Assembly: GCA_022823225.1 (NCBI GenBank)
Contig: JAJDXM010000079.1
Span: 1-64,000, forward strand
Direction of reading: 5' to 3'
Length of the DNA: 64,000 nt
Origin: Gemmatimonadota bacterium
Lineage (GTDB): Bacteria; Gemmatimonadota; Gemmatimonadetes; Longimicrobiales; Gaopeijiaceae
Shown: in pieces, positions 1-22,359 of the stretch
Layout of the letters: each line of letters starts with the position of its first letter
Numbering within the stretch: the stretch's first letter is position 1
Translations under genes and position numbers: made by a program
Notes under the pieces: model-generated
Told to the model about the DNA's origin: nothing
Databases searched by the model: none
The model's input: only the letters and a program-made list of their open reading frames with translations

Positions 1-577
1 CGTCACCTGAATCCCCCTCCGCTCGCCATCCCTGCACCGTCACCGGCACTCCTCGCTCTCTCGTCACACGGTCCAACGGCACAATCACCACCCAGATACC
101 GCCCTCAGGTCGCTACCCTGGCTCCGTGTGAGAAATCCGGGCTAGCGGAAGGGAGAGCGCCTCCCCGGGCCTTCAAAGAGCATCGCCGCGACGCCCGCCT
201 CCAGCCGGTCAACATTCATTCAATTCCCAACCTATGGCTCCGCTGACGACTCGTGGGCGACAAACGGTGGCATGTTTATGATTTCCCGGCGATAATGAAA
301 GCCCGGATCCGTGCAGGACGGAATCCAAGCGTCGCGAGGAGGGCCAAAGTGGGTAGGGGCGTCTCAGCGTGCCATGGCGATCCCTCGTGGATTCCCGATG
401 TCAACTAGGGTTGACATTGTGTCAGGTTTAGTTGACATAGCGTTCACGGTCGGCATTCTGGCGTGCCCAGAAGTGGGTTGCTACGTTCGGCGCTGTTTCT
501 CCTTGAACCGCCAGACACGATCATCGCCCTGCTGGAACTGGTGATCGGCGTCGTCGGAACACGTACCCCCTGAAGCC
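1..577. other. Intergenic region before first recognised gene
   Basis: No convincing coding sequence is visible in this stretch. Short open frames exist but have neither a recognisable domain nor a good ribosome binding site. The last 180 bases hold a cluster of GTTGAC motifs that is listed separately and probably belongs to the promoter of the nuclease gene downstream. The left end may be the tail of a neighbouring gene outside the window, but no recognisable protein is encoded. Confidence 0.5.
400..438 (+). promoter_or_regulatory. GTTGAC inverted/direct repeat cluster, candidate operator
   Basis: A perfect 6-bp inverted repeat, GTCAAC-tagg-GTTGAC, lies at 400-415. A second GTTGACAT follows at 431-438, exactly 21 bp (about two helical turns) after the first GTTGAC. 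TTGACA is also the consensus -35 hexamer, so a promoter may overlap the repeats, although I see no good -10. It lies about 140 bp upstream of the nuclease operon. A role as repressor site is inference. Confidence 0.4.
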
Positions 578-1285
578 ATGTCGGTCGATCGAGTCAACTC
601 CTGGGATGCCCACATTCGTGCGATGGAAGCCGAGTGGGAAGAGATCTCCGCGCGCCAGGCGACGGCGCGCTTGGCCAATTGGAACGAAGCCATATCGGAG
701 ATGCGTCACCAGCAGGAGCGTCTCATCTCGGATGGGCTGTGGGTGAGTGGGCCGTCGGATTTCCTCGATGTCATCGGACTCGCCCGCGACGAAAACACTC
801 ACTCGCGCATGCTCGAGTGGCTCTTGAAGCCGACGGCGCGCCACGGCCTCGGATGCGGGCTTGTCAGGCGCTTGGTACGACGCTGCACCGGGGAGCCGGT
901 GTCGGCGCCGGTGGCAGTCAGGAAAGTGGTGTTCTCGTACTGGCGGAATGGCCGAGAGGCCGACCTAGTCGTGTGGGGCCGGAACTTCACGCTCATCATC
1001 GAGAACAAGGTCGACGCGTCAGAGCAACCCGACCAGTGCGACGACTTGTACGAGAACTTCAGGAGCGAGATCGCGCCGCTGTTCCTCTTCCTGACACCAG
1101 ACGGCGGCGAGCCGTTCACAGCGACCACACCGGAAGCCCAGCGGGCTTTCACGGCTATCTCGTGGCCCGAGGTGCGAGCAATGTTGGCCGCGGCACTAGA
1201 CGAATCACTGCCAGCGACCGCAGAGGCCGACGCGGTCGATGTCGTCAGAAACTACCTTCGCACGCTCAAGGAGCAGTTTGGATGA
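578..1285 (+). CDS. PD-(D/E)XK nuclease family protein (PDDEXK_4-like)
   Basis: This 235-residue protein matches the layout of the PDDEXK_4 nuclease family. An N-terminal helical region is followed by the family hallmark ENTHSRMLEWLL near residue 93, an EADLVVW strand supplying the acidic metal-binding residue (about residue 132), and an IENKVDA strand with the E-x-K catalytic pair (about residue 145). A QPDQCDDLY helix and a terminal FLFLTPDG strand follow. Such proteins are typical of defence islands and cleave DNA, but the target here is unknown. Its stop overlaps the next start in an ATGA, so both proteins are probably made together. A GTTGAC repeat cluster lies upstream. Confidence 0.85.
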   Translation: MSVDRVNSWDAHIRAMEAEWEEISARQATARLANWNEAISEMRHQQERLISDGLWVSGPSDFLDVIGLARDENTHSRMLEWLLKPTARHGLGCGLVRRLVRRCTGEPVSAPVAVRKVVFSYWRNGREADLVVWGRNFTLIIENKVDASEQPDQCDDLYENFRSEIAPLFLFLTPDGGEPFTATTPEAQRAFTAISWPEVRAMLAAALDESLPATAEADAVDVVRNYLRTLKEQFG

Positions 1286-1833
1286 ATCGGATCGAGAACG
1301 AACAGATCAAGTTCTTCTTCCAGCACGAAGAGCGGATCAGAGAGTGGGCTGGTCTGGAGACCGAAGTCATCAAGTTCGTGGACCGATTCTACCGGAGCCT
1401 TAAGGGCGATCTCGACGCGGCACTCGCGAACGGCAGGATCGCTGCCAACGGCGTCGAGTCGTTTCTCGTTGGAGGAGACTGGCCAGGAGTCGGCCTCCGT
1501 CGACGGGGTTGGCCCGAGGGCGACGACGACCCGGATGTGAGATTGGAATGGCAGCGCAAGAAAGCGCTCTTCCCTCCCCATGGTTGGCTGATCTGCGGAG
1601 TCAGGACGAACGTGAACGACTACAGAGCGCCATTCACCAAGGAGGCGCGGCCTGGTTATCCTCGGCAGACCCACGACTGGCCAGCATGCAAGAACGTTGA
1701 CCCGCCGGATGGCAGGTTCTGGGAGGGTGACAACCTCAAGGAATACCGCGCCCGTCTGGTGGAGACCATTTTCGAGGCGTGGGAAGAGCTTGCCCCGCTG
1801 GTGGATGAAGGCGTTGGTCGACGATCCGGTTGA
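1282..1833 (+). CDS. Unknown partner of PD-(D/E)XK nuclease
   Basis: This 183-residue protein starts at an ATG that overlaps the stop of the nuclease gene (ATGA), which strongly supports this start and translational coupling. I do not recognise a family. The protein is soluble, charged and rich in Trp and Arg, with a predicted N-terminal helical region (residues 1-50) and a C-terminal helix around the WEELAPLVDE segment. There is no signal peptide or membrane segment. The fixed pairing suggests it is a specificity, regulatory or immunity partner of the nuclease; that role is inference. It ends exactly where a broken FG-GAP fragment begins on the other strand. Confidence 0.7.
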   Translation: MNRIENEQIKFFFQHEERIREWAGLETEVIKFVDRFYRSLKGDLDAALANGRIAANGVESFLVGGDWPGVGLRRRGWPEGDDDPDVRLEWQRKKALFPPHGWLICGVRTNVNDYRAPFTKEARPGYPRQTHDWPACKNVDPPDGRFWEGDNLKEYRARLVETIFEAWEELAPLVDEGVGRRSG

Positions 1834-1849
1834 TTTCAAACCCTGTTCT

Positions 1850-2014
1850 GCGCCAGAAGGACGGCCACGTGGTCGGCCGTCGGAGTCGATGTCGTGCAGT
1901 CGAACGGCGTGCGAGGTCGGCAAGCCCATCCCCGTCGAGATCCGCGATGACCAGGTCCACCGGATTCTCGCCGGCGGCAACGGACCACGTTATTTCGAAG
2001 CGGTCGTCACCCCG
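1850..2014 (-). pseudogene. FG-GAP/VCBS repeat fragment, locus A part 1
   Basis: Read on the minus strand this encodes a piece of a calcium-binding beta-propeller repeat, with ENPVDLVIADLDGDGLADL followed, after a frame change, by HAVRLHDIDSDG. The same protein segments occur at 13790-14326, 24352-24490 and 29690-30011. Compared with the 13.8-14.3 kb copy, about 50 residues are deleted between the two repeats, and there is no start or stop of its own. It is therefore a remnant of a secreted FG-GAP protein. Confidence 0.75.
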
Positions 2015-2072
2015 GCCAAGCGGGCGCGGATGCGTGATGGGTCTTCCGGTCGGGCGCGTATGGGAGGGTACT

Positions 2073-2456
2073 ATGACCTTCGGCATCCCGATAATCGATT
2101 CGATCTTCTTCTCGAGCAACGCGAAGGTACACGCGGAAAGCGTGGTGGCCGCGATGGACGCGGAAGAGAGAGCATTCACTGGCCGGTCGCTGTATTACGA
2201 CATGATGGACGACGTGGAAACTCTCAACGTCCCGGCGCTCACGAACGGCCAGGTGGCCGCACTGTGGCTTGCCGCGCACCGGATCGGATACCCGTCCGCG
2301 CTGTGGCGGGACGGGGGCCGCTTGCTGGACGGCCACGATGACATGGCCGGTGACCTTCGCGCGGGCCTCGCGAACTGGGAAGCCAAGGCCACGGAGAGGC
2401 ACGGTCCGGACATCATTATGTCCGTGCTTGCCGGAGCGATCGCCCTGACGAGGTGA
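2073..2456 (+). CDS. Hypothetical 127-residue protein
   Basis: The ATG at 2073 is preceded by GGGAGGG at a good distance, which fixes this start. The protein begins with a short hydrophobic stretch (IPIIDSIFF) and continues as a mostly helical, acidic soluble protein. I do not recognise a family. The gene sits between two pieces of the same broken FG-GAP repeat (1850-2014 and 2462-2518), so it appears to have arrived inside that repeat. No partner gene is adjacent on this strand. A defence or toxin-antitoxin role is possible only from context. Confidence 0.6.
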   Translation: MTFGIPIIDSIFFSSNAKVHAESVVAAMDAEERAFTGRSLYYDMMDDVETLNVPALTNGQVAALWLAAHRIGYPSALWRDGGRLLDGHDDMAGDLRAGLANWEAKATERHGPDIIMSVLAGAIALTR

Positions 2457-2461
2457 CGCCA

Positions 2462-2518
2462 CTCAGTGGCCGCCGGAAACCACGAGGTCCAGCCGCCCGT
2501 CGCCATTCAGACAGGGTT
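2462..2518 (-). pseudogene. FG-GAP/VCBS repeat fragment, locus A part 2
   Basis: On the minus strand this encodes LNGDGRLDLVVSGGH, identical in sense to the start of the repeat kept whole at 29.8 kb and 14.3 kb. In those copies the segment continues directly into the DGHFEVTW / DGRFEVTW motif, which here lies about 450 bp away in part 1. The intervening DNA carries the 127-residue gene. Confidence 0.75.
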
Positions 2519-2542
2519 TGAGGGAGGCCGTACCCCTGCCAC

Positions 2543-3079
2543 CTACTGGTCCGGTCCAGTGACCTCCGCCCTGGGCTCGACCTCCTCATAGAGCGCCATT
2601 AGGATCTCCACTGCCTCGTCAAGGTCGTTCGGATTGGTGTTGAGCGGCCTGTCCTCCCAGGCGTATCTCCAGCCGACGAAGTCGTCCTTGTGCTTCGTCA
2701 GGGTGCTTTGGATGGAATCCATCCACTTGGCTGCGGCCTTCCGCTCGATCCGATTTCGGATGTCGTCATCCAGTGCGTCATACAGCGCGCGAAGATCATG
2801 TGTCCACTCGAACGCACCGGATCGCTTGAACGAGATCGCCTTCAATGAGAGTTCCGCCGCGAGAGCGCGCAGGATCGGCATCACCAGGATGGACGCTTCA
2901 AACCTGTCCTTCTCGTCGGGTGTGGCTGGCCGGGCGTCCGGTTGAATGCTGCGGTCGAACTCTGTGAAGAGGTCGTCCGCGGTGCGCCGCAACCCGCGAA
3001 TCTGGGATTCCAAGACATGGAGGTTCATATCGCGCTCCGTACTGTGACCCGTGGCGTCGCGCATCACAGGTGTCATCAT
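2543..3079 (-). CDS. HEPN-like domain protein
   Basis: This 178-residue all-helical protein has the ELSLKAI...HDLRALYDAL pattern (about residues 76-101), typical of the first helical hairpin of HEPN-type proteins such as AbiV-like families. A WRYAWED segment near residue 138 is also common in them. The same ELxLKAI/HDL pattern recurs in the fusion protein at 12195-13721. A canonical R-x4-6-H RNase motif is not evident, so nuclease activity is uncertain. Two starts are possible: the ATG at 3079, overlapping the upstream stop as ATGA, and an ATG at 3028 with a good GGAG site. The upstream gene (3076-3660) is coupled to it. Confidence 0.7.
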   Translation of the reverse strand: MMTPVMRDATGHSTERDMNLHVLESQIRGLRRTADDLFTEFDRSIQPDARPATPDEKDRFEASILVMPILRALAAELSLKAISFKRSGAFEWTHDLRALYDALDDDIRNRIERKAAAKWMDSIQSTLTKHKDDFVGWRYAWEDRPLNTNPNDLDEAVEILMALYEEVEPRAEVTGPDQ

Positions 3080-3660
3080 TCGCCCCGTTTGGCACTGGTA
3101 TGAACGAGCCCGCCGACGGGACGATTGTCGTCGATTCCTTGCTCCACCATGAAGTCCCTCGTCGTTTCAGCCCGCTGGCTCTTGATCTCGGCGCTGATCC
3201 TCATTCTCGCGACGCCGTAGGTCGGAGGGAATTCCTGCTTCGCCTTCCGGTATTCGCCCGAACGCATGAGCCTGCTCACCGATTGTACCGCCAGCCCGGT
3301 CTCCCGGCGTCGCTCCTCAGCCAGGGGCCCGAACACTTTCCCGTCCTTCATTGGCTTGTCGAAGGCATATAGCCATTCCGTAGACATCTCATCCTCGGAG
3401 AAAAGGTGGACGCCCAGCGGTCGGAGATCGTCCTGGAGGCCGCGGACCATCTCAACAATGTTGTCGACGGTTTCCACTCTATAGGAGGCGCGCTTATCCC
3501 GTTTTTGATCGTACTGCCAGGACTGCTGGAGGAACGAAATCTCCCGCGCGATGCCAACCGCTTCGTCCCGCAGCATCCTGAAGCGACGCTTCTTGTTGAC
3601 TCGGCAGTACAGCCACCTGACTCCGGCCCAGATCGGACCCCCCAGGGACACCACCGACAC
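3076..3660 (-). CDS. Unknown protein coupled to HEPN-like gene; possible interrupted 5' end
   Basis: The open frame from a GTG at 3660 gives 194 residues with a hydrophobic N-terminus (about residues 1-18) followed by a basic stretch, then a charged helical body. It may be a membrane-anchored partner of the HEPN-like protein, whose start it overlaps by ATGA. No family is recognised. The best translation signal is further upstream: AAGGAG and an ATG at 3708 in the same frame, separated from this frame by a TAG codon at 3688-3690. The gene may therefore be a recent nonsense mutant, or may use a weak internal GTG. Confidence 0.55.
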   Translation of the reverse strand: MSVVSLGGPIWAGVRWLYCRVNKKRRFRMLRDEAVGIAREISFLQQSWQYDQKRDKRASYRVETVDNIVEMVRGLQDDLRPLGVHLFSEDEMSTEWLYAFDKPMKDGKVFGPLAEERRRETGLAVQSVSRLMRSGEYRKAKQEFPPTYGVARMRISAEIKSQRAETTRDFMVEQGIDDNRPVGGLVHTSAKRGE

Positions 3661-3793
3661 CGTGGCAAGATTTCGGGTGATCGCATCCTAGATCAATGAC
3701 AAGTCCATCGCACGCTCCTTTCGTGTGCTCGATTCTGTCCGTCTACGAGGGTGACTGGTCTGCGCTTCAGGTACTGCCGGCCAAGCAAGGCAG

Positions 3794-4603
3794 ATGAGCC
3801 GTGGCGGGTGGGCTGACTCCCGTCGCCGAGCTCCGTGGTTGCCTGACTTGGTACGGGTTGCGACGAGGGCTGCTCGCGACGTAGCGTGGCCGATCTGCAA
3901 AGTCGAGGCTTGGGGCGAATACCACATGAGACCAATTGAAGGATTCCCGGGGTTCAGCCCCGTTGCTGACCATCAGGAGCAGGTGGAGCGTGCGATGGCC
4001 CTGCTGGGCCGCCGCCCCGACTTGGAGCACCGTCTCCGGATCAATCCTGATCCAGCGAGAAAGCTGCCGAAAGGTGGCTGGAGTGTGTTTGGGTTTCGGG
4101 GGTCCGTGGGCGCATTCAACGAGAGCCCGCACCTCTTGCTATACGTCGGAGACAGGGACGTATGCGCGAGAGTGGTCCTTCCGAACAAGGCACGGGGCGG
4201 ATTGTGGACCAAGCTGCGGTCTCGGAGCTTGGCTGGCATGATGTCCCAAGTGTCGCGGGACATGGCGCCTGCGATGGCGAATTGCCCGGGCATGGTGCCC
4301 GGCCTGGTTTTGAAGCAGCGGCATTGGCGTACGCGCAGAGGCCCGAGTTTTCAGGATGCCTACCTGGAAGTCGATCTGCGAACCCTCCGGGGAGACTCAG
4401 AATCGGGGGTGAAGAAGCAGCGCGAGTGGATCGAGACGGCCCAGCACGTCGTCGCCAATAGAGCTTCGAATCTCGAACTGCAGGTCGGTGCAACCTTCCC
4501 CTACGATCACTGCCCGGCGATTCAGACCTGTGACGCTCTCGACCACGTGGTGTCGGCTTGGATCGGTTCCCGTTCCTTCGTCAAGTGGCTCCTGACAGCG
4601 TAA
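3794..4603 (+). CDS. Hypothetical protein
   Basis: This frame of up to 269 residues has no domain I recognise. The first 44 residues are very arginine-rich and low in information, so the true start may be the ATG at 3926 (MRPIEGFPGFSPV), giving about 225 residues. The rest is a mixed alpha/beta soluble protein with a Gly/Phe-rich WSVFGFRG segment and an HLLLYVGD strand. There is no signal peptide. It is transcribed away from the HEPN-like pair, with about 85 bp between them. Confidence 0.5.
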   Translation: MSRGGWADSRRRAPWLPDLVRVATRAARDVAWPICKVEAWGEYHMRPIEGFPGFSPVADHQEQVERAMALLGRRPDLEHRLRINPDPARKLPKGGWSVFGFRGSVGAFNESPHLLLYVGDRDVCARVVLPNKARGGLWTKLRSRSLAGMMSQVSRDMAPAMANCPGMVPGLVLKQRHWRTRRGPSFQDAYLEVDLRTLRGDSESGVKKQREWIETAQHVVANRASNLELQVGATFPYDHCPAIQTCDALDHVVSAWIGSRSFVKWLLTA

Positions 4604-4737
4604 TGCCAATGGAGGCCGGATTGAAGTCCATTCCAATCAAGGTTCGTTAGGCACAGCCCGGTGAAGGCCGAGGTGGTGTTGCGGCTGCTTCGGGGTGTGC
4701 GCTGCGATGTGAAAGCGCCAATCGAACCGTCGAGACG
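4604..4737. other. Short gap between convergent genes
   Basis: This gap separates the plus-strand hypothetical gene from the minus-strand membrane protein. I see no clear hairpin terminator, repeat or small gene. Confidence 0.4.
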
Positions 4738-5514
4738 CTATGGTTCAACTGGGTCGTCTGCCTCACGCCAGGTAAATGGGCCTCTCGGAAGCCAGCCCTC
4801 GTATCGGGTCACGGATACCCTGAACTCCATGGCCCTATCCATTCCATTGAAATCCAACGTGTACTGAGATCCATTTCGCCATTTCGCGATTTGACTTGGG
4901 GTCATCCGCCCCGGTTCAGGGCTCTCCTCCGGGAAGAAGGGATAGCCTTCGCTGGAAAAGGTGAGCAGGTAGCCATCCCCCCGGACCCTAAAGCTGATCT
5001 TGAACCCATCCAAGGCAATGTGGTCCGCGAGTTCGGTCGGCCGAGTCTTTCTAGACGTGGCGCACTGGTTCGCGTTGATAACCGTGGAACGTCCAACACG
5101 TAGGCGTATTGAGCGCCCCGATTCGGCATCACGCGGGTGTGACAGAAGGTCCCCATCTTCACCGATGCTAGGCCCTTGGTGAGCCCAGTATTCGATGTAA
5201 ACGCCCCAGACAATCGAATCCACCCGCCACGCCAGACTCCTCAGCCCAGTTTGCCATCGGCGGAGCTGATGGCACAAACGCCGCCACCATCGCACTCCAC
5301 CCTTCACCAACCGGTCCAGGCTCACGAGGATCCAAGCAATCGCAGTCGCGCCCCAAGCGATGCGGATACCCCAACGAACGGGCTCCGTGAACACTCGATC
5401 CAACCATTGCTGTACGTCTTCCGGTGCGTTGATCGCACTAATCAGAGTCAGAATCGCAAGGAGCCATGTGGCACCAATCGCCAACCAACGCTTCGTGTCG
5501 CGCGTCGTTCGCAC
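4738..5514 (-). CDS. Two-TM membrane protein of unknown function
   Basis: This 258-residue protein begins at a GTG just downstream of the small gene at 5518-5745 and probably shares its transcript. Two hydrophobic helices are visible near residues 10-30 and 47-67. An arginine/tryptophan-rich cytoplasmic segment follows, then a soluble C-terminal domain of about 160 residues rich in beta strands. I do not recognise the family. Membrane anchoring plus a soluble domain is compatible with an effector or sensor in a conflict module, but nothing in the sequence proves that. Confidence 0.55.
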   Translation of the reverse strand: MRTTRDTKRWLAIGATWLLAILTLISAINAPEDVQQWLDRVFTEPVRWGIRIAWGATAIAWILVSLDRLVKGGVRWWRRLCHQLRRWQTGLRSLAWRVDSIVWGVYIEYWAHQGPSIGEDGDLLSHPRDAESGRSIRLRVGRSTVINANQCATSRKTRPTELADHIALDGFKISFRVRGDGYLLTFSSEGYPFFPEESPEPGRMTPSQIAKWRNGSQYTLDFNGMDRAMEFRVSVTRYEGWLPRGPFTWREADDPVEP

Positions 5515-5517
5515 TCT

Positions 5518-5745
5518 CTAACCCTCTAGCCTTCTGTCCACGAGGGCCCCAACTACCTCCTCGGGGTCGGTGTGCAACAGGACCGTTAGTGCAACGTCCA
5601 CGATTTCCTGCACGGTGACGCGCCCAGGGCAAGGGATGCCCCGGGCGTCGGTTTCGTCAACGATGTGGTCAACGACTTCGTGAATCAGATTGCGGGTTTG
5701 CGCTGACAGGCGCATGGTCTCGGGGGGAGGGGCGGGAAGTGTCAT
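5518..5745 (-). CDS. Small helical protein, possible regulator
   Basis: This 75-residue acidic helical protein has an excellent ribosome binding site (GGAGGT, 7 bases before the ATG), making it very likely real. The sequence resembles small antitoxin-like or ribbon-helix-helix-like proteins only vaguely, through the LSAQTRNLIHEVVDHIV helix and a VTVQEIVDVAL segment, so no family is assigned. Its stop lies 3 bases before the start of the downstream membrane protein, so the two form an operon. A role as antitoxin or regulator of that protein is inference. Confidence 0.65.
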   Translation of the reverse strand: MTLPAPPPETMRLSAQTRNLIHEVVDHIVDETDARGIPCPGRVTVQEIVDVALTVLLHTDPEEVVGALVDRRLEG

Positions 5746-5975
5746 TGTCGTTACCTCCGTAACTCAGGTGATTATCTCTGGCATCATGAATAGACATGTC
5801 ACGACTGTAACAGCCATGACCGCGAGAGTCAATAGGAAAGAGTGGCGATCGAAGGAGAGTGTCCGGCGGCCATTCGACGCGGGCACTCTTCCCTCATCCC
5901 ACAACTCGGCCCATCCGGCCATCGATCCGCCCAATCACCTCCGCGAACTTGGCGTCCCCCCTTCCCAGAGACGCG

Positions 5976-6613
5976 ATGCACGATCCCTTCCTCAAGTCGT
6001 TCTTCGCCGATCGCCGCATCGTCGGAATCCTGATCCGCGATCACGTGCTGCCAATAACCACATACACCGCGTTGGCGCTCGAGGGAATCGCAACCGGACC
6101 CGACTTCGGCCCCGGCGACGCGCTGCCGGAGTTCGTCTATCTCGTCCTCTACCACGGCGACGGTCCCTGGAGTGGTCCGGATCGCGTGGCCGACCTGTTC
6201 CAGCGTTCCGATCCGGGCCGGTTCCGCCTGGTGTCGTGGCGAGAAGGGGCGGGAACCGGTCGGCCGCTGGACGACATCACGGCGCTGGTGCTCGGGGTGG
6301 CCCGAAGCCACGGGCCTGAGGACATGGCTGAGCAGGTGGCAGCTCTGCGACTCAGGGTCGCGGAACTCGGCGACGCCAGCCTGGAACGCATTCGTGGTCG
6401 AGCGACTGGAGACGCTGTTAGAATTGTCGGACGCAGGGCCAGGCAATGGTCCTGCGTCGGCTGATCGCGCGGAGGTTCGGCGAGGCCACGGCGGGGCAAG
6501 TGTCCGACGCGGTTGAGGAGCTGACTGGCAATGAGGGCATCGACAAGGTGACCGACGCGCTGTTCGAGTGCGGCACCGGCGACGAGTTCATCGAACGGGT
6601 GCGTACGGCTTGA
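5976..6613 (+). pseudogene. Rpn-family nuclease remnant, copy 1
   Basis: The reading frame begins with MHDPFLKSFFADRR and jumps to ITTYTALALEG, DALPEFVYLVLYHGDG and ALVLGVARSHGPEDM, the N- and C-terminal hallmarks of Rpn (recombination-promoting nuclease / transposase_31) proteins. The central PD-(D/E)XK core is missing. Against copy 2 it has a one-base insertion near 6385 that shifts the frame, and about 100 bp are lost before the conserved tail (6446-6613, ending GDEFIERVRTA). It is inactive as a nuclease. Flanking DNA before the start is shared with copy 3 (28.5 kb). Confidence 0.8.
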
Positions 6614-6720
6614 CGACCGGGCGAACGGATCTGGGACGTGAGGTGGAAGCGGCACTTGGCGAGGTGCTTGCCCATGTGCGAGGAGAAACGTCGCTCCCGT
6701 GTCGGCCGGTGGAGCTGCGT
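6610..6720 (+). pseudogene. HigA-like antitoxin N-terminal fragment, copy 1
   Basis: A TTG overlapping the Rpn stop (TTGA) opens a frame reading TDLGREVEAALGEVLAHVRG, which matches the N-terminus of XRE-type HigA antitoxins (the DLGxE-x-LxEVxAHxxG pattern). The helix-turn-helix domain is absent; after about 35 residues the sequence runs into unrelated DNA. The same fragment follows Rpn copy 2. The family call rests on this short pattern only. Confidence 0.5.
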
Positions 6721-6789
6721 GGGCGCGGCCGCCGGAAGCGAGACCACGAATCCGGGGGTAGCCCGCGAAGTCTAATTCTAATTGCGTAC

Positions 6790-6997
6790 TCCGGTACTCT
6801 CTGGAAGAACGGCCGGGTGAAGTCCACGATGTCGGGCCGCTTGGTGTGGTGTCCCTCGACCGTGACCTCTTCAGCGATGGCGAAGTCGTTGGCGGCCGGG
6901 TTGTCCCAGTCGATCAGGTCGACGGTGACCGTGTGTGCCGGAAATGGTTGACGACCCGTTCCTGGGTGCGCCTTTCCAGCTCGCCGACGGCGGTCAC
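6790..6997 (-). pseudogene. hsdR: Type I restriction HsdR N-terminal fragment
   Basis: A GTG at 6997 overlaps the stop of the AlbA_2 gene (GTGA) and opens with TAVGELERRTQERVVNHFR, the usual first helix of HsdR. After a deletion and frame change it continues as TVDLIDWDNPAANDFAIAEE and EGHHTKRPDIV. This is the conserved HsdR N-terminal nuclease-domain signature (IDWDNP..NDF..RRPDIV). The following lobe (NGIPL..E-K) and the whole translocase are gone. It is the 3' end of a decayed hsdM-hsdS-AlbA_2-hsdR operon on this strand. Confidence 0.75.
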
Positions 6998-8458
6998 AGT
7001 ACTTCCCAATGGCCGACTCTGGATGAACCGACGCGCCGGATTGCGCCGGCCTCGCGCAGCTTGCGGAAGTGGTACTTCACTGCCCTGACAGATATTCCAA
7101 GACGCTTGGCGATCAAGGACTGAGTGATCCGGGGCTCGTCTCTCAGGACCGCGAGGATCCGCTCTGCCCCAGGCATCGGTTCAATGCTTCGGGTGGTCTT
7201 TGGGGAAGTCTTTGGGGCAATCTTTGGGGAAGTCTTTGGGGAAGTCGGTGACCCTTCGGCGGCCTTCTGGCGGTTGTCCGGCCATGTCCCTTCTCCCGCG
7301 TTTTCCTGGCTGTAGCCCGGTACTCCGCGGGCGGCGGCATCGGCCGCCAGGTAGGCCCCGGAGAACGGGAACCGCAGGCGGAGCACGCCGCCGGGTTCCC
7401 GGGCCCAGAGCGGCGCCGGGTTGCCAGCTTCGAGACACCGTTCGCGGATCTGGTGGATCCCTCGGCCCCATGCTTCGATCAGCCCGGCCCGAAAGAAGGC
7501 GTGGGCGACTCTCGGGTTGTGCGGGTCCGACAGCATTCCTCCGGTGGTGGAGACGTTCCATTCGACCGGAAGTTCGGCCGGATTGCGGATCGTGATGCGA
7601 TCATGGTACACGCGAATCTGCGTGGATGTCTGTCTGGCGTAGTCGCGATGGATGACGGCGTTGATGACAGCCTCCCGCATGGCTCTCCTTGGCACTGGGA
7701 AGGTCTCGACACGATAGATGCCGTCGTAGGAAACCACACCCCGGGTGTACTTGGTGTAGAGCAGGTCAAGCGTCCGGTCCACCTGTGCGAAAAGATCGCC
7801 CTCGATGACGTCCTGATAGATCAGTTCGGGACCCCTGAAGTGGCCGATCTTGACGTGGGAACCCATGAGGAATCGATGTGGCGACGGATGGAATAGCAGG
7901 ACGGCGGCCCGCTTCAGAAAGGCGCCGTCGCGGAGCTGGAGTCTCTCGATCACGTCCTCGTCCGAGTCGTCCAGTGCTTCCGACGGCAACCGCTCCGCCT
8001 GGACGCCTCGCCGTCGGAACCCATCGAATATCCGGCCGTCGAGCTCACCCAGCGTCACGCCGGGCAGGGCCACGTCATCCCACGTCCGGCCATGCTTTTC
8101 GAGCAGAAAGCGGGTCAGCGCCACGCCCTCCAGCACCTGCTTGGTGCTGCCGCTTCGGTAGTGGAACTTGCCCCGGTAGCTGATGGGGTTCGAGTGCGGC
8201 TCCACGACGATCTCGATGTACTCCAGACCGGACTCCGACTTCAGGTTCACGTCGACAACGATTCCGAGCAGCGCCCGCACCTTGCTCGGAATGTCCTCCA
8301 TCAGCGAAAGCACGTTGCGGACCCCGACGATGTCGCCCTTGTCGTCCTTGCCGATCTCAAGGGATGCCGCCCTGCGCGTTCGCGAAGCCGCAGATCCACG
8401 CGAGGTATTCGTCGCGCCAGGAGCGCTTCCACTCGACGTTCTGGGTCTCGGGTGTCAT
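6994..8458 (-). pseudogene. AlbA_2 (Schlafen-type) ATP-binding regulator, frameshifted
   Basis: The protein is a COG2865-type regulator: an N-terminal AlbA_2 domain, a HATPase_c_4-like middle (REAVINAVIHRDY motif, RNPAELP, GRGIHQI), a Ser/Pro/Lys/Thr repeat, and a C-terminal winged helix. The natural start is the ATG at 8458 (MTPETQNVEWKRSWRDEYL). One extra C near 8370 shifts the frame inside the AlbA_2 signature, so only a shorter product from 8313 remains open (439 residues). The start overlaps the upstream stop as ATGA, and its stop overlaps hsdR as GTGA. Such genes are common inside type I restriction operons. An assembly error remains possible for the single-base shift. Confidence 0.75.
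7195..7247 (-). repeat. Tandem 12-bp repeat coding for Ser-Pro-Lys-Thr units
   Basis: Four near-identical copies of a 12-bp unit (plus-strand form TTTGGGGAAGTC) lie inside the AlbA_2 gene and encode a TSPKTSPK-type linker before the winged helix. Similar Lys/Thr-rich linkers are usual in this protein family. A degenerate version at about 19490-19560 marks the remnant of the second AlbA_2 copy. Confidence 0.8.
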
Positions 8459-8880
8459 CGGCCGGCCTCGGTGGCGGATTCGTCCAGGACGCTCCAATGA
8501 CCACCTTTGTCGGGACCCACCCGCTCGATCTTCCCGGCCTCGCGCAACCTGTCCAGCCGATACCGGACGGTGGATCGCGTGGCGCCGAGGGTGGCGGCGA
8601 TTTCGCGGCGGCTGGCGGACGGGTTCTTCCGCAGGAAGGCGAGGATGCGGTCCCCAACTTTCTGGCGGTTTTCTGGCTGATCCCGATTTTCTGGTTGTTT
8701 TCTGGCTGATCTGCGCAGGTCCGCCAGACGGAGCAGGTCGGTCACCTCGATGGCCTCGCGGCGGATCTCCCGCCCGATCTCGACGACGCCGCCTCGACCG
8801 TTCGCGAGTCCGCAGATGCAGTCCAGGTGCTCGTCCCGCCAGGAGGATATCCGCTCGACTTGAGAAGGGTCAGGCGTCAT
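8455..8880 (-). CDS. Internally deleted AlbA_2/winged-helix protein
   Basis: The 141-residue product starts MTPDPSQVERISSWRDEHL. It keeps the AlbA_2 start (ICGLANGRGGVVEIG), then passes directly, after about 58 residues, into a C-terminal winged-helix domain (NPSASRREIAATLGATRSTV, LREAGKIERVG). The AlbA_2 second half and the ATP-binding core are deleted in frame. It therefore encodes at most a small DNA-binding protein. It overlaps the next AlbA_2 gene by ATGA. A closely related, differently deleted gene lies at 19654-20505. It may be a relic, or may still act as a repressor. Confidence 0.65.
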   Translation of the reverse strand: MTPDPSQVERISSWRDEHLDCICGLANGRGGVVEIGREIRREAIEVTDLLRLADLRRSARKQPENRDQPENRQKVGDRILAFLRKNPSASRREIAATLGATRSTVRYRLDRLREAGKIERVGPDKGGHWSVLDESATEAGR

Positions 8881-8965
8881 GTGCGTCGTCGTCCTCCGTG
8901 TCGTCGTCGGGGATGGGTAGCCGGATGGCACCGGTTAGGAGCTGCTGCATCATAACCCTGCTTGA
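8873..8965 (-). pseudogene. hsdS: Type I restriction HsdS C-terminal fragment
   Basis: The frame contains RVMMQQLLTGAIRLPIP, the usual C-terminal end of HsdS specificity subunits (LMQxLLTGxxRL). It is followed by an acidic tail DDDTEDDDAHDA that overlaps the start of the AlbA_2 gene. The target-recognition domains are missing. The acidic-tail DNA is repeated near 21133-21162. Confidence 0.65.
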
Positions 8966-9059
8966 TCGCGCGGGTTTTGTCGAGGCGGTGTGCGAGGGCT
9001 CTGCAACCCGTGCATTGACGTTGCCCTTGGTGACGCCGTTCTTTCCCTCCAATCCATTC

Positions 9060-9258: not shown

Positions 9259-11736
9259 TCACCGCAGGACGTCTGCCGGCCCGCTCGACTCCGCCAAGAC
9301 GTTCGATTCGGCGCTGTAGCCGAGATTCCGATAGCCCGAGACCCGCTTCTCGCTCATGCGCTTGAGCATGGGGACGCACTCGTCAACATAGTCATAGACG
9401 CGCACCTCGCGCTTTTCAGGATGGAGGCGGTGGAGCCGGCCCACATACTGCGCGAGCGTCCCTCTCCAGGAGAACGGCATCGTCAGGAACAGCGTGTCGA
9501 GGCGGGCATCATCGAACCCCTCCCCGATGTATCGGCCGGTTGCGACCAGCACCCGCTCCTCGCCTTCCGGAATCTCCTCCAGGCGGTGCATCAACGCGCG
9601 ACGCTCCCGCGTCCCCATGCCCCCGCGAAGCACGAGCACGTTCTGCGCGGCGCGGGCCACCTTCTCGGCTAGATACCGGGCGTGCTCCCTGCGTTCGGTG
9701 AGAAGGATGGGTGAGCGTCCGGACTCGACCGCCGCTTGGACATCGTCAACGATCAGCCTGTTGCGTGTCTCGTCAACGGCCAGCGCGGCATACACCTGCT
9801 GGATGGGCGGTCGCTCGCCGTCCACGACCGCCGGCAGCCGGAACGAAGTCGGCCGGAGGATCGCTCGGTGCCGGAAGGGGCGCCGACGAGCCTGTGCCTT
9901 GGCGGTTGCCCGGTACCGTACGGGCCCGCACTGCATGAAGATGATGGGATGGTGACCATCCCGACGCGTAACGGTTGCCGACAGGCCGAGCACATATCTG
10001 GCCTTGGTGCGGCGTGCGACGGCCTCGAAGCTGACGGCGGGGAGATGGTGACACTCATCGACCACGAGATGTCCATAATCGGCCACCATGTCGTCTACTT
10101 CTCTGTTGCGCACCAAGCTCTGGATCACGCCAACATCGACCAGCCCGAGCGGTTTGCGCTTTCCGCCGCCGATCTGCCCGATGGACGCGGCGGGAAGATC
10201 GAGAAATGCCGCCAGCTGTGCGATCCACTGGTCCATGAGCTGCAGACGGTGAACCAGCACGAGCGTGCTCGTGCGGCGCGAGGCGATGACGGAAGCGGCC
10301 ACCACGGTCTTGCCGAACCCGGTGGCTGCAGCGAGGACGCCGGTTTCGTGCCGCAACAGCGCATCGGCGGCCGTATGCTGTTCAGGGGTCAATTGGCCGC
10401 GAAAGCTCGTCTCGACCGGGCGGCCGGAATCGCGCGCGTCCCGCACATCTACGCGAATGCCGAGCTCCTCGAGCATCGACTCCATCACCTCTCGGCAGCC
10501 TCGTGGCAGCGCGATGTGGTGCGATAGCAGTTCCGCGCACGCCACGATTCGGGGGACACCGAAGGTCGAACGCCGCATCGCCTGCGCACTGTAGTATGCC
10601 GGGTTCTGGAACGCCGCGACACGGATCAGCCGGTTGACCAGGCCGGGCGGGAGGTCAGCCCGCGGGATGTAGAGCTGGTCGCCCAGCACCGCGTTGATCC
10701 GTTCGGGCATTGCTCCGGAGATCTCGGGCAGCGGCAGGCGTCGTGAAGGCGGTGCCAGCCAGGGCTCCTCGTCCCGTTCTTCGAGCGGCAGGCGTAGACC
10801 GATGACGCGGCCCCGTCGACTCGCTTCGTCGGTGGCTAACGTGACTTCCGTAGGGGAAAGACGCCGAAGCGACGAAAGAAAGGCCCATTGGTCGCTGTAG
10901 GGCTCGAAATCACGGTCGAGGAACACGCTGTTGCCGATCCTGCGGGGCCCGCCTTGCAGAGGCAGCGCGATGAGGTTACCGAAGCCGCCCGTCGGGAGAG
11001 TATCCTGGCTTGGGAAGAAGCGGTCATAGGATGCAAACCCGATGTCGGGGTGGCACTCCATGGCTTCGGTCAGAAGATGGGCACCGAGACGGCGGGCGAG
11101 GGAGGCGGGGACCGGGTTGTCAAAGAAGATCCAGACATGTCCGCCGTTGCCCGAGCGGGAGCGCTCGAGCGCCGCCGGAATCTGCTTCGACCGACAGGCT
11201 TCGAGGAAGGCTCTCGCGTCTCGCCGCCACGTTTTCCTGTCGAAGTCGGCGGCGAGGAAACGGCAGGTGTCGTCTTTCCGGATCGGATAGACGCCGATCG
11301 TGTGACGACCGCGCAAGTGCCCCTCGATCACTTCGTCCGTCACGGGCAGGAAGGCCTGATTGGGGCAAGCTCCGCATTTGACCTTGGGCTTGCCACACAG
11401 GCGCGGTTTCCATTCGTTGGCGCACGCGGGCGCGTAGCCCGCCCGACCGGTTCGCGTGTTTTCCCAGCGCTTTGGAAACACGTCTTCACGACCGCAAAAC
11501 AGGGCCCGAAAGAGGGCGATCTTCTCGCTTGGCGTCGACGTCTTGGTCACGGGACCCGCGGGCTGCTTGCCATACCGGGTCGGAGGTTCACTCGCCTCCA
11601 GTTCTCCGAGTCGGGAAGTCAGATCAGCCGTCTCTGCCGCAAGCCGCGCCAGGCGTTCGCGAATACGTGCGGCTTCCTGCCTGCGAGAGTCTTCGTGTGC
11701 CAACCCGTTCTCCCGGCTCTCTTCGTCGTAAGGCAT
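9259..11736 (-). CDS. TOTE-type primase-helicase (AEP domain plus DEAD/DEAH helicase)
   Basis: The 825-residue protein starts with a coiled-coil (residues 10-50). A Cys cluster (C105, C114, C121, C124) follows, then an archaeo-eukaryotic primase domain with the D-x-D pair in FLAADFDRK (about 164-166), the SGNGGHVW His motif (about 200) and a FGNLIALPLQ strand. The C-terminal half is a superfamily 2 helicase: ATGFGKT (470-477), DECH (560-563), SAT (586-588) and a QYVGRLHR motif VI. This AEP-plus-helicase layout is known from TOTE conflict systems. The ATG at 11736 avoids overlap with DUF1828; an upstream start at 11799 would add 21 residues. It is the last gene of a four-gene operon. Confidence 0.85.
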   Translation of the reverse strand: MPYDEESRENGLAHEDSRRQEAARIRERLARLAAETADLTSRLGELEASEPPTRYGKQPAGPVTKTSTPSEKIALFRALFCGREDVFPKRWENTRTGRAGYAPACANEWKPRLCGKPKVKCGACPNQAFLPVTDEVIEGHLRGRHTIGVYPIRKDDTCRFLAADFDRKTWRRDARAFLEACRSKQIPAALERSRSGNGGHVWIFFDNPVPASLARRLGAHLLTEAMECHPDIGFASYDRFFPSQDTLPTGGFGNLIALPLQGGPRRIGNSVFLDRDFEPYSDQWAFLSSLRRLSPTEVTLATDEASRRGRVIGLRLPLEERDEEPWLAPPSRRLPLPEISGAMPERINAVLGDQLYIPRADLPPGLVNRLIRVAAFQNPAYYSAQAMRRSTFGVPRIVACAELLSHHIALPRGCREVMESMLEELGIRVDVRDARDSGRPVETSFRGQLTPEQHTAADALLRHETGVLAAATGFGKTVVAASVIASRRTSTLVLVHRLQLMDQWIAQLAAFLDLPAASIGQIGGGKRKPLGLVDVGVIQSLVRNREVDDMVADYGHLVVDECHHLPAVSFEAVARRTKARYVLGLSATVTRRDGHHPIIFMQCGPVRYRATAKAQARRRPFRHRAILRPTSFRLPAVVDGERPPIQQVYAALAVDETRNRLIVDDVQAAVESGRSPILLTERREHARYLAEKVARAAQNVLVLRGGMGTRERRALMHRLEEIPEGEERVLVATGRYIGEGFDDARLDTLFLTMPFSWRGTLAQYVGRLHRLHPEKREVRVYDYVDECVPMLKRMSEKRVSGYRNLGYSAESNVLAESSGPADVLR

Positions 11737-11743
11737 CTGCCGC

Positions 11744-12019
11744 TCAAGCCTTCGGCGCACCTTCGATGAGAAGCCCACGGCTTCCTGCCAGGAAGGCATC
11801 GATATCGTGGTCGTAACTGATCCGCATCAGGGTGTCGCCCTTGTCGGACAGCCGGACGCCGCCCGGCGCCTCCGACAAGTAGATGGGGTAGCGGTCCCCG
11901 TCGGGGAACTCGAAGTCGGCCTCGAGCATGACTTCGCCATCGGGACGCGGCTCCACGCGGACGGATGCGCAGAGTTGCTCGCATAGTCGTCTTTGCAGGT
12001 CGTCAGGGTTGATAGCCAT
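11744..12019 (-). CDS. Short DUF1828-like protein
   Basis: The 91-residue protein shows the DUF1828 pattern: an N-terminal helix, then DFEFPDGDRYPIYLSEAPGG strands and LSDKGDTLMRI. Full DUF1828/DUF1829 proteins are usually much longer. Here the frame ends after FLAGSRGLLIEGAPKA, so it is either a stand-alone single-domain form or truncated. Its start lies inside the end of the preceding 59-residue gene, and it ends 7 bases before the primase-helicase ATG, consistent with one operon. DUF1828 proteins recur in mobile and defence regions; their biochemical role is not established. Confidence 0.7.
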   Translation of the reverse strand: MAINPDDLQRRLCEQLCASVRVEPRPDGEVMLEADFEFPDGDRYPIYLSEAPGGVRLSDKGDTLMRISYDHDIDAFLAGSRGLLIEGAPKA

Positions 12020-12194: not shown

Positions 12195-13721
12195 CTACCG
12201 GGAATCTGAATCGTCGGGTGTCCGCCTCCGCCAAACAAATGCACTCTCGCCGGACTCGGCGGTAAGGCGGATGCCCTCTTGGAAGTCTCCGGCGGATGCT
12301 TTCTGGCCAAGGTTCCCCGTCCATGTTGCCTGCGGTCTTGAAATCAGTCTGCCTTCGAGCCCCGACATCTCGCACTCATCAAGAATCACTCTCGCTGCCT
12401 TTTCCAATTCGTGGATTCTCTCGTGGTGTAAGCCGCGCTCGATTGCCTCCTTGACGCTTGCAGAGTTCTGAAAGTACCGGGATTCGTGGAAGATCTTCCC
12501 AGGCTCCCTCAGTACGTTACCGATGTCGGTGTAGTCCGCTTCCAAACGCGCCCGGCTATCTTCTGGAAGGTCCGAGTACAGCTCCTGCACGTCGTGAATC
12601 CTCTTCGCCCGATGGCAGCGGGTCATTAGAATCGCCTTCAATGCCACCTCACAAGAGAATGCCGCCATCAGGCCGCGCATCATGAGTGCCCCCGCTCTCT
12701 CCTCCCAAGTGCCGGGGTCTGCCCGCGAAGCTACATCTACATCCAGGTGTATCCCCGACTCATCCAGGCGGTCGATTCGGAGCTTCAATGGCCCGGCGGG
12801 ATCCAGCTCATCCCAGCGGTGAATCGCCGTTTCGAACGGAAGGCTGCGGGCAGCTGCAGCGAGGAGCTTCGCCTGCAGATAGAGGTATCCAGCTTCGCCT
12901 GCGGGGATGGTATCGCGGGTGAGAAAGTGCGTGCGCCCCTCCTTTGCCGGAAGCCTGAGTGCCTGCTCTGCCCGCATGTCCCAGTGGGCCTGGTCGCGGG
13001 GCATGTCGGCGATGATCTTCGCCACGAACTTCGCCGCGGGGCGGTAGTCCGGTGTTTCCCCGCGCGCCATCTCAGCGAGATTGTGGGTCGCTTCTCGCTC
13101 CATCGCACTCCACTCAGCCATCGCCGCATCGTTCGATAGACTGCTCGTACAAAGCGCGCATCCGATTCTTGTGACCGTTCCGCTCTCAGAAGCGGAGAGA
13201 CGTGCGTCCCCCCAGCACGCCGTGCATCGCAATTTGACGATTGGGGGGGCCGTCCCATCGGTCATAACCGGCTCGAGGTTCGCGAATGACTTCGCCCGCA
13301 GGAAGATGGCCGGATCCTGAAGCAGTCTCAGGTGGCGGTCGTTGGCCACGTTCTGGATGATCTCGCGCGTTTCCCAGCGGGCGATCGACGACTCGCCGAG
13401 CCCGCTAATCCTCGCCAGCTCCGCTCGAGAGAGATCATACTTCGCCCGGAGATCACGAATCTCGATTGGCGTGAGAACACCCAGGTGCCGGCAGACTTCG
13501 TCGTGGCGGATGTCCTCGGCTTCGTCATCTGTGTAGGGTCCGCAAGAGGAGCAGGTCCGGACCGGGATGTCTACGACCAGCTCGACGCCTTCGTCGCCGG
13601 CGCCATAGATGAACGGGTCCCGAACGAGTTCGGTCTTGAGGCCCGGGGTCCCACACATATCACAGGTGTCGGGTCCGTCGAGCTCGCGGAGAACGGTGGG
13701 GGGAGATGCGACGCTAGGCAT
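12195..13721 (-). CDS. MqsA-like zinc-ribbon/HTH protein fused to HEPN-like domain
   Basis: The start at 13721 is set by GGAGG nine bases upstream; an in-frame ATG at 13730 abuts that site too closely. Residues 18-60 form an MqsA/YgiT-type zinc ribbon (C20, C23, C57, C60). It is followed by the LTPIEIRDLR / LSRAELARISG helix-turn-helix (about 83-122) typical of MqsA antitoxins. A second CxxC pair set (C166, C169, C188, C191) suggests another zinc ribbon. Residues about 350-455 form an HEPN-like helical domain with EVALKAI and RAKRIHDVQELY, which includes an R-x4-H spacing. The 508-residue fusion joins an antitoxin-type sensor to a possible RNase module and heads the operon that ends in the primase-helicase. 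Confidence 0.75.
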   Translation of the reverse strand: MPSVASPPTVLRELDGPDTCDMCGTPGLKTELVRDPFIYGAGDEGVELVVDIPVRTCSSCGPYTDDEAEDIRHDEVCRHLGVLTPIEIRDLRAKYDLSRAELARISGLGESSIARWETREIIQNVANDRHLRLLQDPAIFLRAKSFANLEPVMTDGTAPPIVKLRCTACWGDARLSASESGTVTRIGCALCTSSLSNDAAMAEWSAMEREATHNLAEMARGETPDYRPAAKFVAKIIADMPRDQAHWDMRAEQALRLPAKEGRTHFLTRDTIPAGEAGYLYLQAKLLAAAARSLPFETAIHRWDELDPAGPLKLRIDRLDESGIHLDVDVASRADPGTWEERAGALMMRGLMAAFSCEVALKAILMTRCHRAKRIHDVQELYSDLPEDSRARLEADYTDIGNVLREPGKIFHESRYFQNSASVKEAIERGLHHERIHELEKAARVILDECEMSGLEGRLISRPQATWTGNLGQKASAGDFQEGIRLTAESGESAFVWRRRTPDDSDSR

Positions 13722-13789
13722 GGTGGTCATCCTCCGAGTAGCTCGTCGGGCAAGTTCGCTCCTTCCGATGGTTTCATGAAGATAACTGC

Positions 13790-14326
13790 CCATATGACAT
13801 GCTACCGGCTCCTACGTGTGGCCGATCCTCCGCGACGACCGAGAATGGGCCGAAGCGCACCGGTAGGGTTGCCCGCGGTCGAAAGCCGCCGTTCCTGTCG
13901 GCGACAAGGACGACCACGTGGCCGGAATTCGGCGTGATCAGGTCCGCAAGGCCGTCACCCGTCACGTCGGCCAGACTCATGCCCCGGTTCGATGTCGCGC
14001 AGTCGAACGGCGTGCGGGTGCGGCGAGACGTCGACGCGGAATCTCGAGTGGTCCCGGCGTTCGAAGCCCCCTTCGGCGATCCCGAAGAGCAGCGTAACAT
14101 GGTCCGTCTCGTGGTTTGCGACCGCGAGGTCGGCAAGCCCGTCCTCGTCGAGATCCGCGATGGCCAAGTCCACCGGATTCTCGCCGGCGGGGCCGGACCA
14201 CGTCACTTCGAAGTGGCCGTCACCCTGGCCGGTCAGCACGAAGACGCTCTGGCCGCTGGAAACCACGAGGTCGAGGCGCCCGTCGCCATTCAGATCGCAA
14301 GCTTGGATCGGGGTGGACGACAAACG
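13790..14326 (-). pseudogene. FG-GAP/VCBS repeat protein fragment, locus B
   Basis: This is the longest surviving stretch of the recurring protein: LNGDGRLDLVVSSGQ, FEVTWSGPAGENPVDLAIAD, DEDGLADLAVANHE, LLFGIAEGGFERRDH and HAVRLRDIE. After a one-base frame change near 13985, SLADVTGDGLADLITPN follows. These are four successive Asp-rich FG-GAP/VCBS blades. It lacks a signal peptide and a proper end and lies exactly between the zinc-ribbon/HEPN operon and the STAND operon. Confidence 0.8.
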
Positions 14327-21011: not shown

Positions 21012-22359
21012 CCGTACTCTCCTTCGTGTCCCGGAAAGGTGGGAGCCTGACCGGTGCGCGGCAAGCCACGAGGTCGAGCCGCCCCTCGCCATTCCGGTTG
21101 TGAGCCTCGATCACCGTCGGCTTTGACGGCGTCATGGGCGTCGTCGTCCTCCGTGTCGTCATCTCGCGCTTCACCCATCGTCGACCGACCGCGCCTCAAT
21201 CGCAACGCCCGCCCTCCAACTGCCCCAATCTCCCGCCGAACCTGCGCCACCTGATCCGCGAGCTCCTCCGGCGACGGCAGATACAGCTGGTACTCCGATG
21301 CGTAGATGTTGGCGTCCTCGGGCAGCGTCAGCTCGACAACGGCGTCGTTCTTGTGATCGCAGAGCAGGATCCCGACCGTCGGCAGTTCGCCGTCGATCTT
21401 CACGTAGCGGTCGAAGTAGTTCACGTACATCTGCATCTCCGCTGGCCGAGGTCCTGATGGGTCAGCTTACCGGTCTTGAGATCGATCAGCACGTAGCAGC
21501 GAAGCAGCCGGTTGTAGAACACCAGGTCCACGAAGAAATGACTGTCGTCGAAGCTGAAGCGCTTCTGGCGGGCCTCGAACAGGAATCCCTTGCCGAGTTC
21601 GAGCAGGAACTGTTGGAGCCGGTCGATGATCGCGGTCTCCAGATCGCTCTCGGAGTAGGCCGGTGTCTCCTCCAGGCCGAGGAACTCCAGCACCACCGGG
21701 TCCTTGATGAGGTCCGACGCCTTTTCGACCACATGTCCCTCACGGGCCAGGCGGCGGACTTCGTGCTTGTCGCGGCTGAGCGCGAGCCGCTGGTACAGGG
21801 AGCTGTCGAGCTGGCGCTTGAGTTCGCGGACGCTCCAGCCGTTCTCCGCCGCCTCGATCTCGTAGAATCGGCGGGCCTCGGGGTCGGATACGGACAGGAG
21901 GGTGACGTAGTGGGACCAGCCGAGGGGGAGGCGGTGAATCAAAGTGGCGGAAGCAGACCGCAGCGCTTGCGACATGCCCGCTCCTGATGCAGTGGATTTC
22001 GCAGACGGTGTCTGCGGATTCTGAGCAGCGGCGGAAATCGCAGACAGTGTTTGCGTTTTTCCGGCTTGTGGCAGGATCTCTTCGGATTGCAGGTAGAAGC
22101 GTCGAAACTGCTCGGGGGATCGCAAGGAAAACCCCCGCCCGATCCTCTCCTTCAGGGCCGCGGACAGTCTCTTCAGGGTCTGCGCGCCATACTCTGCCCG
22201 ATCCGCGCCGCTCTGCTCATACTCCACGATGTACCATCCGAACAGCCAGTTCCGGACGACCAGCGAGCGGTCGACGGCGCGGGCCGCGGAGCGCCGAGTT
22301 TCCTCATGGGTCTGCTGGCACAGCTCGACCAGACGCTCTAAATCGAATCGCTTCTCCAT
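21008..22359 (-). pseudogene. DUF1016 (YhcG-like) PD-(D/E)XK nuclease, frameshifted
   Basis: The N-terminal DUF1016_N domain (LVVRNWLFGWYIVEYEQ, LKRLSAALKERIGRGFS) and the C-terminal nuclease domain are both present. The nuclease domain includes FFVDLVFYNRLLRCYVLIDLK with its catalytic D and D-x-K, and LTHQDLGQ. Just after LTHQDLGQ a net +2 insertion near 21436 shifts the frame; the remainder (MQMYVNYFDRYVKIDGE, GILLCDHKNDAVVE) is open in the next frame. The tail past about 21170 is read through a foreign 30-bp repeat and FG-GAP DNA, so the true C-terminus is replaced. DUF1016 nucleases often accompany type I restriction systems. Confidence 0.8.
21046..21122 (-). pseudogene. FG-GAP/VCBS repeat fragment, locus C
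   Basis: A short stretch encodes IEAHNRNGEGRLDLVACRAPV, a diverged version of the repeat segment LNGDGRLDLVVSGG found at the other loci. It lies between hicB and the broken DUF1016 gene, joined to the 30-bp sequence shared with 8.87 kb. Confidence 0.55.

Follow-up and report, generated by a model that had tools for sequence, protein, structure and literature searches.

The closest described relatives of the locus studied here are proteins with the PDDEXK_4 nuclease domain (PF14281), which are mostly made as single chains, and PDC-S26, a phage-defence candidate in PADLOC that is called where one protein matches a model of 351-451 positions end to end. According to PMC12988326, PDCs are putative candidates derived from "guilt by embedding" and still unvalidated, and PMC11514479 lists other PDC genes in Streptococcus thermophilus. 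The literature searched contained no paper on PDC-S26, PDDEXK_4 or PF14281. Among heterodimeric restriction enzymes, the small subunit of R.BspD6I is a nuclease subunit working with a separate chain, the large subunit, which itself has a nuclease domain. Small, coupled and mobile two-gene units are also typical of toxin-antitoxin modules, most of which are antitoxin-first, and of nuclease-immunity pairs.

A sequence-only reading of the window, a stretch of 64,000 nucleotides of Gemmatimonadota DNA, had proposed a two-gene cassette in which a PD-(D/E)XK nuclease is coupled by ATGA to a partner. Both genes and the overlap are indeed present, and the features of the locus are as follows:

578..1285, forward strand: PDDEXK_4 nuclease gene (proposed catalytic subunit), 235 aa, with PF14281 and PADLOC PDC-S26 matches and an invariant active-site set
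791..1036, forward strand: codons of active-site E72, D129, E142, K144 and Q153, from the alignment, with positions computed from the start at 578
1282..1285, forward strand: ATGA start/stop overlap, translational coupling, a 4-base overlap being found in 11 of 13 pairs
1282..1833, forward strand: partner gene (proposed regulatory or targeting subunit), 183 aa, of no family in the searched libraries, adjoining the nuclease in 13 pairs
561..1834, forward strand: typical extent of the DNA common to relatives at other sites, by blastn with nine close loci

The nuclease matches PF14281 with an E-value of 4e-16 and 59.9 bits against a curated cut-off of 22.3, and it keeps the active-site residues. 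In an alignment of 10 rows, one of them from the window, E72 with H75-S76, D129, E142-N-K144 and Q153 form a complete and invariant set; the positions E72, D129, E142-x-K144 and Q153, which we take to be the catalytic ones of the PD-(D/E)XK superfamily, thus bear out the complete active-site signature claimed beforehand. Furthermore, the nuclease matches two PADLOC models of PDC-S26, PDLC04972 (E 3.6e-19) at model positions 33-207 of 397 only, and PDLC04977 (E 4.3e-18) at positions 34-208 of 400 only. The likeness to PDC-S26 is therefore confined to the first half of the models, whereas the partner matches no PADLOC model, and neither protein spans a PDC-S26 model end to end.

The predicted core of the nuclease, taken from a weak model (mean pLDDT 60.1), runs helix-helix-three strands-helix-strand, an order that fits a restriction-like fold. 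In VIA comparisons of this model, the top row was the R.BspD6I small subunit (2p14, Z 7.7, 3.5 A over 128 residues), with EcoT38I (Z 7.2), FokI (6.0) and MspJI (5.7) as further leading rows and with Can2 and Card1 (Z 5.4-6.4), SduA (4.7) and NucC (4.6) also matched, all at Z below 8, a range that by the tool's own note may reflect nothing beyond a common fold. Foldseek with the same model gave a best E-value of 0.013, and the nuclease profile found no convincing solved relative by sequence; the likeness to the R.BspD6I small subunit is one of predicted structure.

How firmly the two genes belong together was apparent from their relatives. The nuclease-first search, which covered 98 genomes of relatives as well as genome contigs (L002 and L008 are one contig and were counted once), found eight other close nucleases with 67-80% identity to that of the window, and in all eight, distributed over three phyla, the partner adjoins the nuclease, the partners being 62-72% identical. 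A partner missing beside other nucleases of the subfamily had been named as the observation that would speak against a functional pair; the neighbourhood analysis backs such a pair, as the partner is never missing from these eight and the DNA common to the sites amounts to these two genes. An extra pair (L059) was found when the five genomes that hold L009-L013 were searched with the partner, and three distant pairs (L057, L077, L078) came from partner-first searches, with L057 being 36% identical to the window in the nuclease and 30% in the partner. This gives 13 pairs in total, the window's included, with the partner frame of L078 cut by a contig end. Nuclease and partner are coupled beyond chance, since they overlap by four bases in 11 of these 13 pairs (9 ATGA, 2 GTGA); in the other two, gaps of 16 and 12 bases separate the ORF coordinates. 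Against nine relatives, both genes evolve under purifying selection, with dN/dS values of 0.25-0.31 for the nuclease and 0.21-0.36 for the partner, the latter marking the partner as a real gene. In addition, the pairwise distances of nuclease and partner correlate with r 0.81 over 45 pairs, which stem from 10 loci and are not independent of one another.

The two genes are a real, conserved and mobile unit. In blastn comparisons of window positions 1-9000 with 12 loci, each of the nine close loci produced one aligned block, which starts at 516-589 and ends at 1831-1843; it thus opens at most 62 bp ahead of the nuclease gene or 11 bp into it, and closes at the stop of the partner. Outside this block, L061 gave three short matches and L062 one, and the distant locus L085 matched weakly within it. 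According to blastn, the block contains no third gene, and since the shared DNA holds two genes only, neither of which matches a methyltransferase, the unit differs from type II restriction-modification systems in having no cognate DNA methyltransferase. The two copies of G335 (L013, L014) have about 1,257 bp in common and differ in their flanks, and L012 and L059 have 1,400 bp in common; L011 with L013, and L009 with L010, have flanks in common and occupy common sites.

The close form occurs in 3 of 23 same-genus genomes, including that of the window. Its other copies belong to Gemmatimonadota (L008), Chloroflexota (L009, L010) and Actinomycetota (L011); G335 falls in the class of L011's genome, G334 (L012, L059) in the same phylum sample as G335, and both carry two copies each. 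Copies in other phyla are separated from the window by dS values of 0.59-0.81 for the nuclease and 0.63-0.99 for the partner, which argues for transfer of the cassette between phyla. The isolate names suggest that several of the copy-bearing bins come from sponges. Defence-related features are, by the title of PMC5099237, enriched in sponge-associated metagenomes.

Among plasmid records, the nuclease of the window matched five, all of them distant, and neither its partner nor the L057 partner had a match; phages, searched with the nuclease as the only query, gave no match to it. Viral contigs held no relatives for the queries A1, A2, L071, L057 nuclease and A7, and a scan with A5 returned one single-chain relative, L075, which as a query led back to the same contig only. 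In this IMG/VR contig (L075:1171-3679), the single-chain PDDEXK_4 relative of 407 aa lies beside a frame reading by eye as a tyrosine integrase.

Searches of Pfam, NCBIfam and PHROGs at E 1 and of PADLOC at E 0.1 gave no match for the partner, and its earlier description as belonging to no known family stands with regard to these libraries; it needs amending in that the protein seems to be related to an undescribed domain of other PDDEXK_4 proteins. Its best model, built from 8 rows with a mean pLDDT of 79.2 (the other four had 36-67), consists of a long helix (3-49), five strands and a second helix (150-182), and an alignment of 10 rows with distant members shows W22, W77, W90, W133, W147 and W167, among other residues, to be invariant. 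Foldseek returned best E-values of 0.54 in PDB and 0.039 in viral models, and the partner profile yielded no convincing solved relative by sequence. VIA matches to CapZ (Z 7.3) and to the McrB DNA-binding domain (Z 5.5, 118 residues, 3.9 A) were set aside as signs of kinship, as values in this range may mean a common arrangement and nothing further, and no function was drawn from them. The R.BspD6I large-subunit chains were absent among the VIA matches listed for the partner, an absence that excludes nothing.

At four places a partner homologue was found with no nuclease, intact at one (L079/L082) and fragmentary at three (L080/L084, L081/L083, L092). The intact one has 214 aa, and no nuclease match was found across its whole 11.6-kb contig. 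There (L082:3876-9136), genes for a MoxR-type AAA protein, a DUF2201 metallopeptidase-like protein and a protein with an S-adenosylmethionine synthetase domain precede the solo homologue, which overlaps by ATGA the end of the last of these genes. The contigs of the fragments, L083 (9 kb, with a frameshifted homologue), L084 (5 kb) and L092 (3.4 kb), likewise gave no nuclease match; at L083:1165-3131, a frame with weak ABC/SMC-type ATPase matches adjoins the frameshifted homologue. Weak partner-HMM matches at L018 and L019 were rejected, as they run antisense to long frames.

Among PDDEXK_4 proteins the split arrangement is the exception. The phylum sample contained 39 PF14281 places in 24 of 298 genomes, of which three have the split form, with open frames of 246, 284 and 246 aa from stop to stop, whereas at the other 36 places 34 frames measure at least 333 aa and the remaining two 134 and 270 aa, again from stop to stop. 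Likewise, among 12 plasmid relatives chosen from 5 + 23 matching records, 11 have frames of 384-469 aa (with a script-chosen start), and one is cut by the record end. Three of seven single chains scanned (L020, L071, L064) match PDC-S26 models end to end, and L025 and three chains of group A match them in part. Hence the cassette differs from most other PDDEXK_4 matches in that its nuclease is short and the proposed counterpart of the C-terminal half is encoded by a separate gene.

That the partner is this counterpart is suggested by profile comparison. In hhalign, a 14-row partner profile aligned with nine group A single chains at E 3.2e-6 over 150 columns, reaching both C-termini, and with the C-terminal halves of group A at E 8.9e-7 locally (score 49.1, 150 columns) and E 6e-8 globally (174 columns). 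Shuffling the partner columns gave best scores of 27.3 against 49.5 (100 shuffles) and 25.2 against 49.1 (300 shuffles), and the score was 43.0 when the solo homologue was left out. The match hangs on the distant partners, since it fell to E 0.024 without L057 and L077 and to 0.013 with the 10 close rows alone; earlier partner profiles of 9 and 10 rows had given E 0.023 and 0.0028. A profile of the joined pair aligned with group A over 372 columns, with a score that includes the nuclease half. At the level of single chains, the partner HMM reached 9.8 bits at best, where the three top chains belong to group A and match at the right place; the reverse search with a group A HMM found no partner (best 1.0 bit). 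Altogether, a remote relationship seems to link the partner to the C-terminal half of the single chains in group A.

No match to the partner was found in the C-termini of groups B, C and D (E 0.037 or worse, where three of the seven group B rows had been truncated at a fixed position), and a profile mixed from A and C aligned with it over 26 columns at E 0.019. The C-termini of the groups also failed to match each other, except for B with C at E 0.003. In a tree of the nuclease domain (43 rows), the split clade (support 93/91) falls on the C and B side rather than the A side, and thus the C-terminal half may either evolve very fast family-wide or have been exchanged. Either fission or fusion may have given rise to the two forms, since group A is not the nearest nuclease clade and the C-termini of the nearer clades are without a match.

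We consider it moderately probable that this mobile cassette specifies a two-subunit restriction-like nuclease with a catalytic and a separate regulatory or targeting subunit, as group A carries a C-terminal half with which the partner aligns, and single chains prevail among the other PDDEXK_4 matches in the phylum sample. In our model, the first protein would be the PD-(D/E)XK catalytic subunit and the second the counterpart of the C-terminal domain that group A nucleases carry in cis. With their stop and start codons overlapping, the two subunits would be produced together and form a complex. Within it, the partner would keep the nuclease silent, or steer it, up to the recognition of a target; this target is most probably phage or plasmid DNA, which would then be cut. 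Assembly, target, DNA cutting and a part in defence are what we infer for the pair. Of the two roles first suggested for the partner, specificity or immunity, the former, in the sense of targeting or regulation, gains support from the alignment with group A, and the latter persists as a rival.

Under that rival, the pair would be toxin-antitoxin-like, with a nuclease that harms its own cell and a partner that neutralises it, which we regard as possible, if unlikely. The asymmetry of the two genes fits it well, as none of the eight other close nucleases lacks the partner, yet the partner has homologues at four places without a nuclease; an immunity gene could give the same partner-only asymmetry, and this keeps the explanation alive, as does the likeness of a small, coupled and mobile cassette to such pairs. 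However, the nuclease gene comes first, unlike in most such modules, and the second gene resembles a region that single-chain nucleases carry in cis, which suits a working part better than an inhibitor. Nor is the partner consistently acidic, its calculated pI ranging from 5.0 to 9.3 across 14 homologues.

A broader, and in our judgement rather doubtful, extension is that the partner represents a portable module, undescribed so far, which would serve bacterial conflict systems in sensing or targeting, one that acts in trans to the split PDDEXK_4 nuclease, in cis in group A, and is coupled to the MoxR-type AAA/DUF2201/S-adenosylmethionine synthetase-domain operon of L082.

A defence role of the cassette is likely because of the surroundings of the distant pairs and of the window. 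Restriction-type genes lie beside two of the three distant pairs: the G1032 pair adjoins an SNF2/ResIII helicase, an N6/N4 methylase and a Res protein, and at G1038 a ResIII-domain gene comes directly before the nuclease gene, which overlaps its end. The single neighbour scanned for the third pair (G591, L058) had no match. Near the cassette of the window, within 23 kb, defence-type genes encode an AEP-TOTE primase-helicase, a HEPN protein and a YhcG nuclease. That the pair instead serves DNA repair or replication, as a nuclease and its accessory factor, seems quite improbable to us: PDC-S26 is a candidate label only, and the neighbours of close copies elsewhere often read by eye as house-keeping genes (metabolic or ribosome-related), but the cassette behaves as accessory genes do, with a patchy presence within the genus, the cross-phylum dS values given above and double copies in G334 and G335. 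Finally, two independently acting genes that happen to travel together are a very improbable explanation, for although a partner homologue also occurs alone, once overlapping an S-adenosylmethionine synthetase-domain gene (L082), the two genes adjoin in 13 pairs down to the 36% nuclease identity of L057, share a 4-base overlap in 11, and have a region related to the partner in cis in group A.

Several neighbouring genes were recorded in their own right. On L089 (203-9916), genes for an SNF2-like helicase, an N6/N4 methylase and a Res protein come after the partner of a distant split pair. On the reverse strand of the window, positions 2543-3079 encode a HEPN-domain protein (E 4e-6) that overlaps by four bases an unmatched 194-aa frame at 3076-3660, so that 2543-3660 holds another coupled pair downstream of the cassette. 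Positions 9259-11799, also reverse, encode a TOTE conflict-system component of 846 aa that carries an AEP-TOTE primase domain (E 7.7e-100) and a ResIII helicase domain; 12195-13793 (reverse) encodes 532 aa whose MqsA-antitoxin, HTH and HEPN matches are weak and fall short of the curated cut-offs, and 21421-22359 (reverse) a YhcG/DUF1016 PDDEXK nuclease (E 1.2e-32). On the forward strand, 33982-37779 encodes a possible surface adhesin of 1265 aa, in which Spondin_N, PKD and cadherin-like repeats were matched.

Following from our analysis, the cassette is most likely the split, two-gene variant of a candidate defence nuclease whose usual form is a single chain. Screens that look for a full-length gene would register only a short nuclease and overlook the partner, as the PADLOC models do here. 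For the PDDEXK_4 family, the two-gene version separates the catalytic from the non-catalytic half, so that each can be removed, swapped or purified alone, and this natural split makes the role of the second half directly testable.
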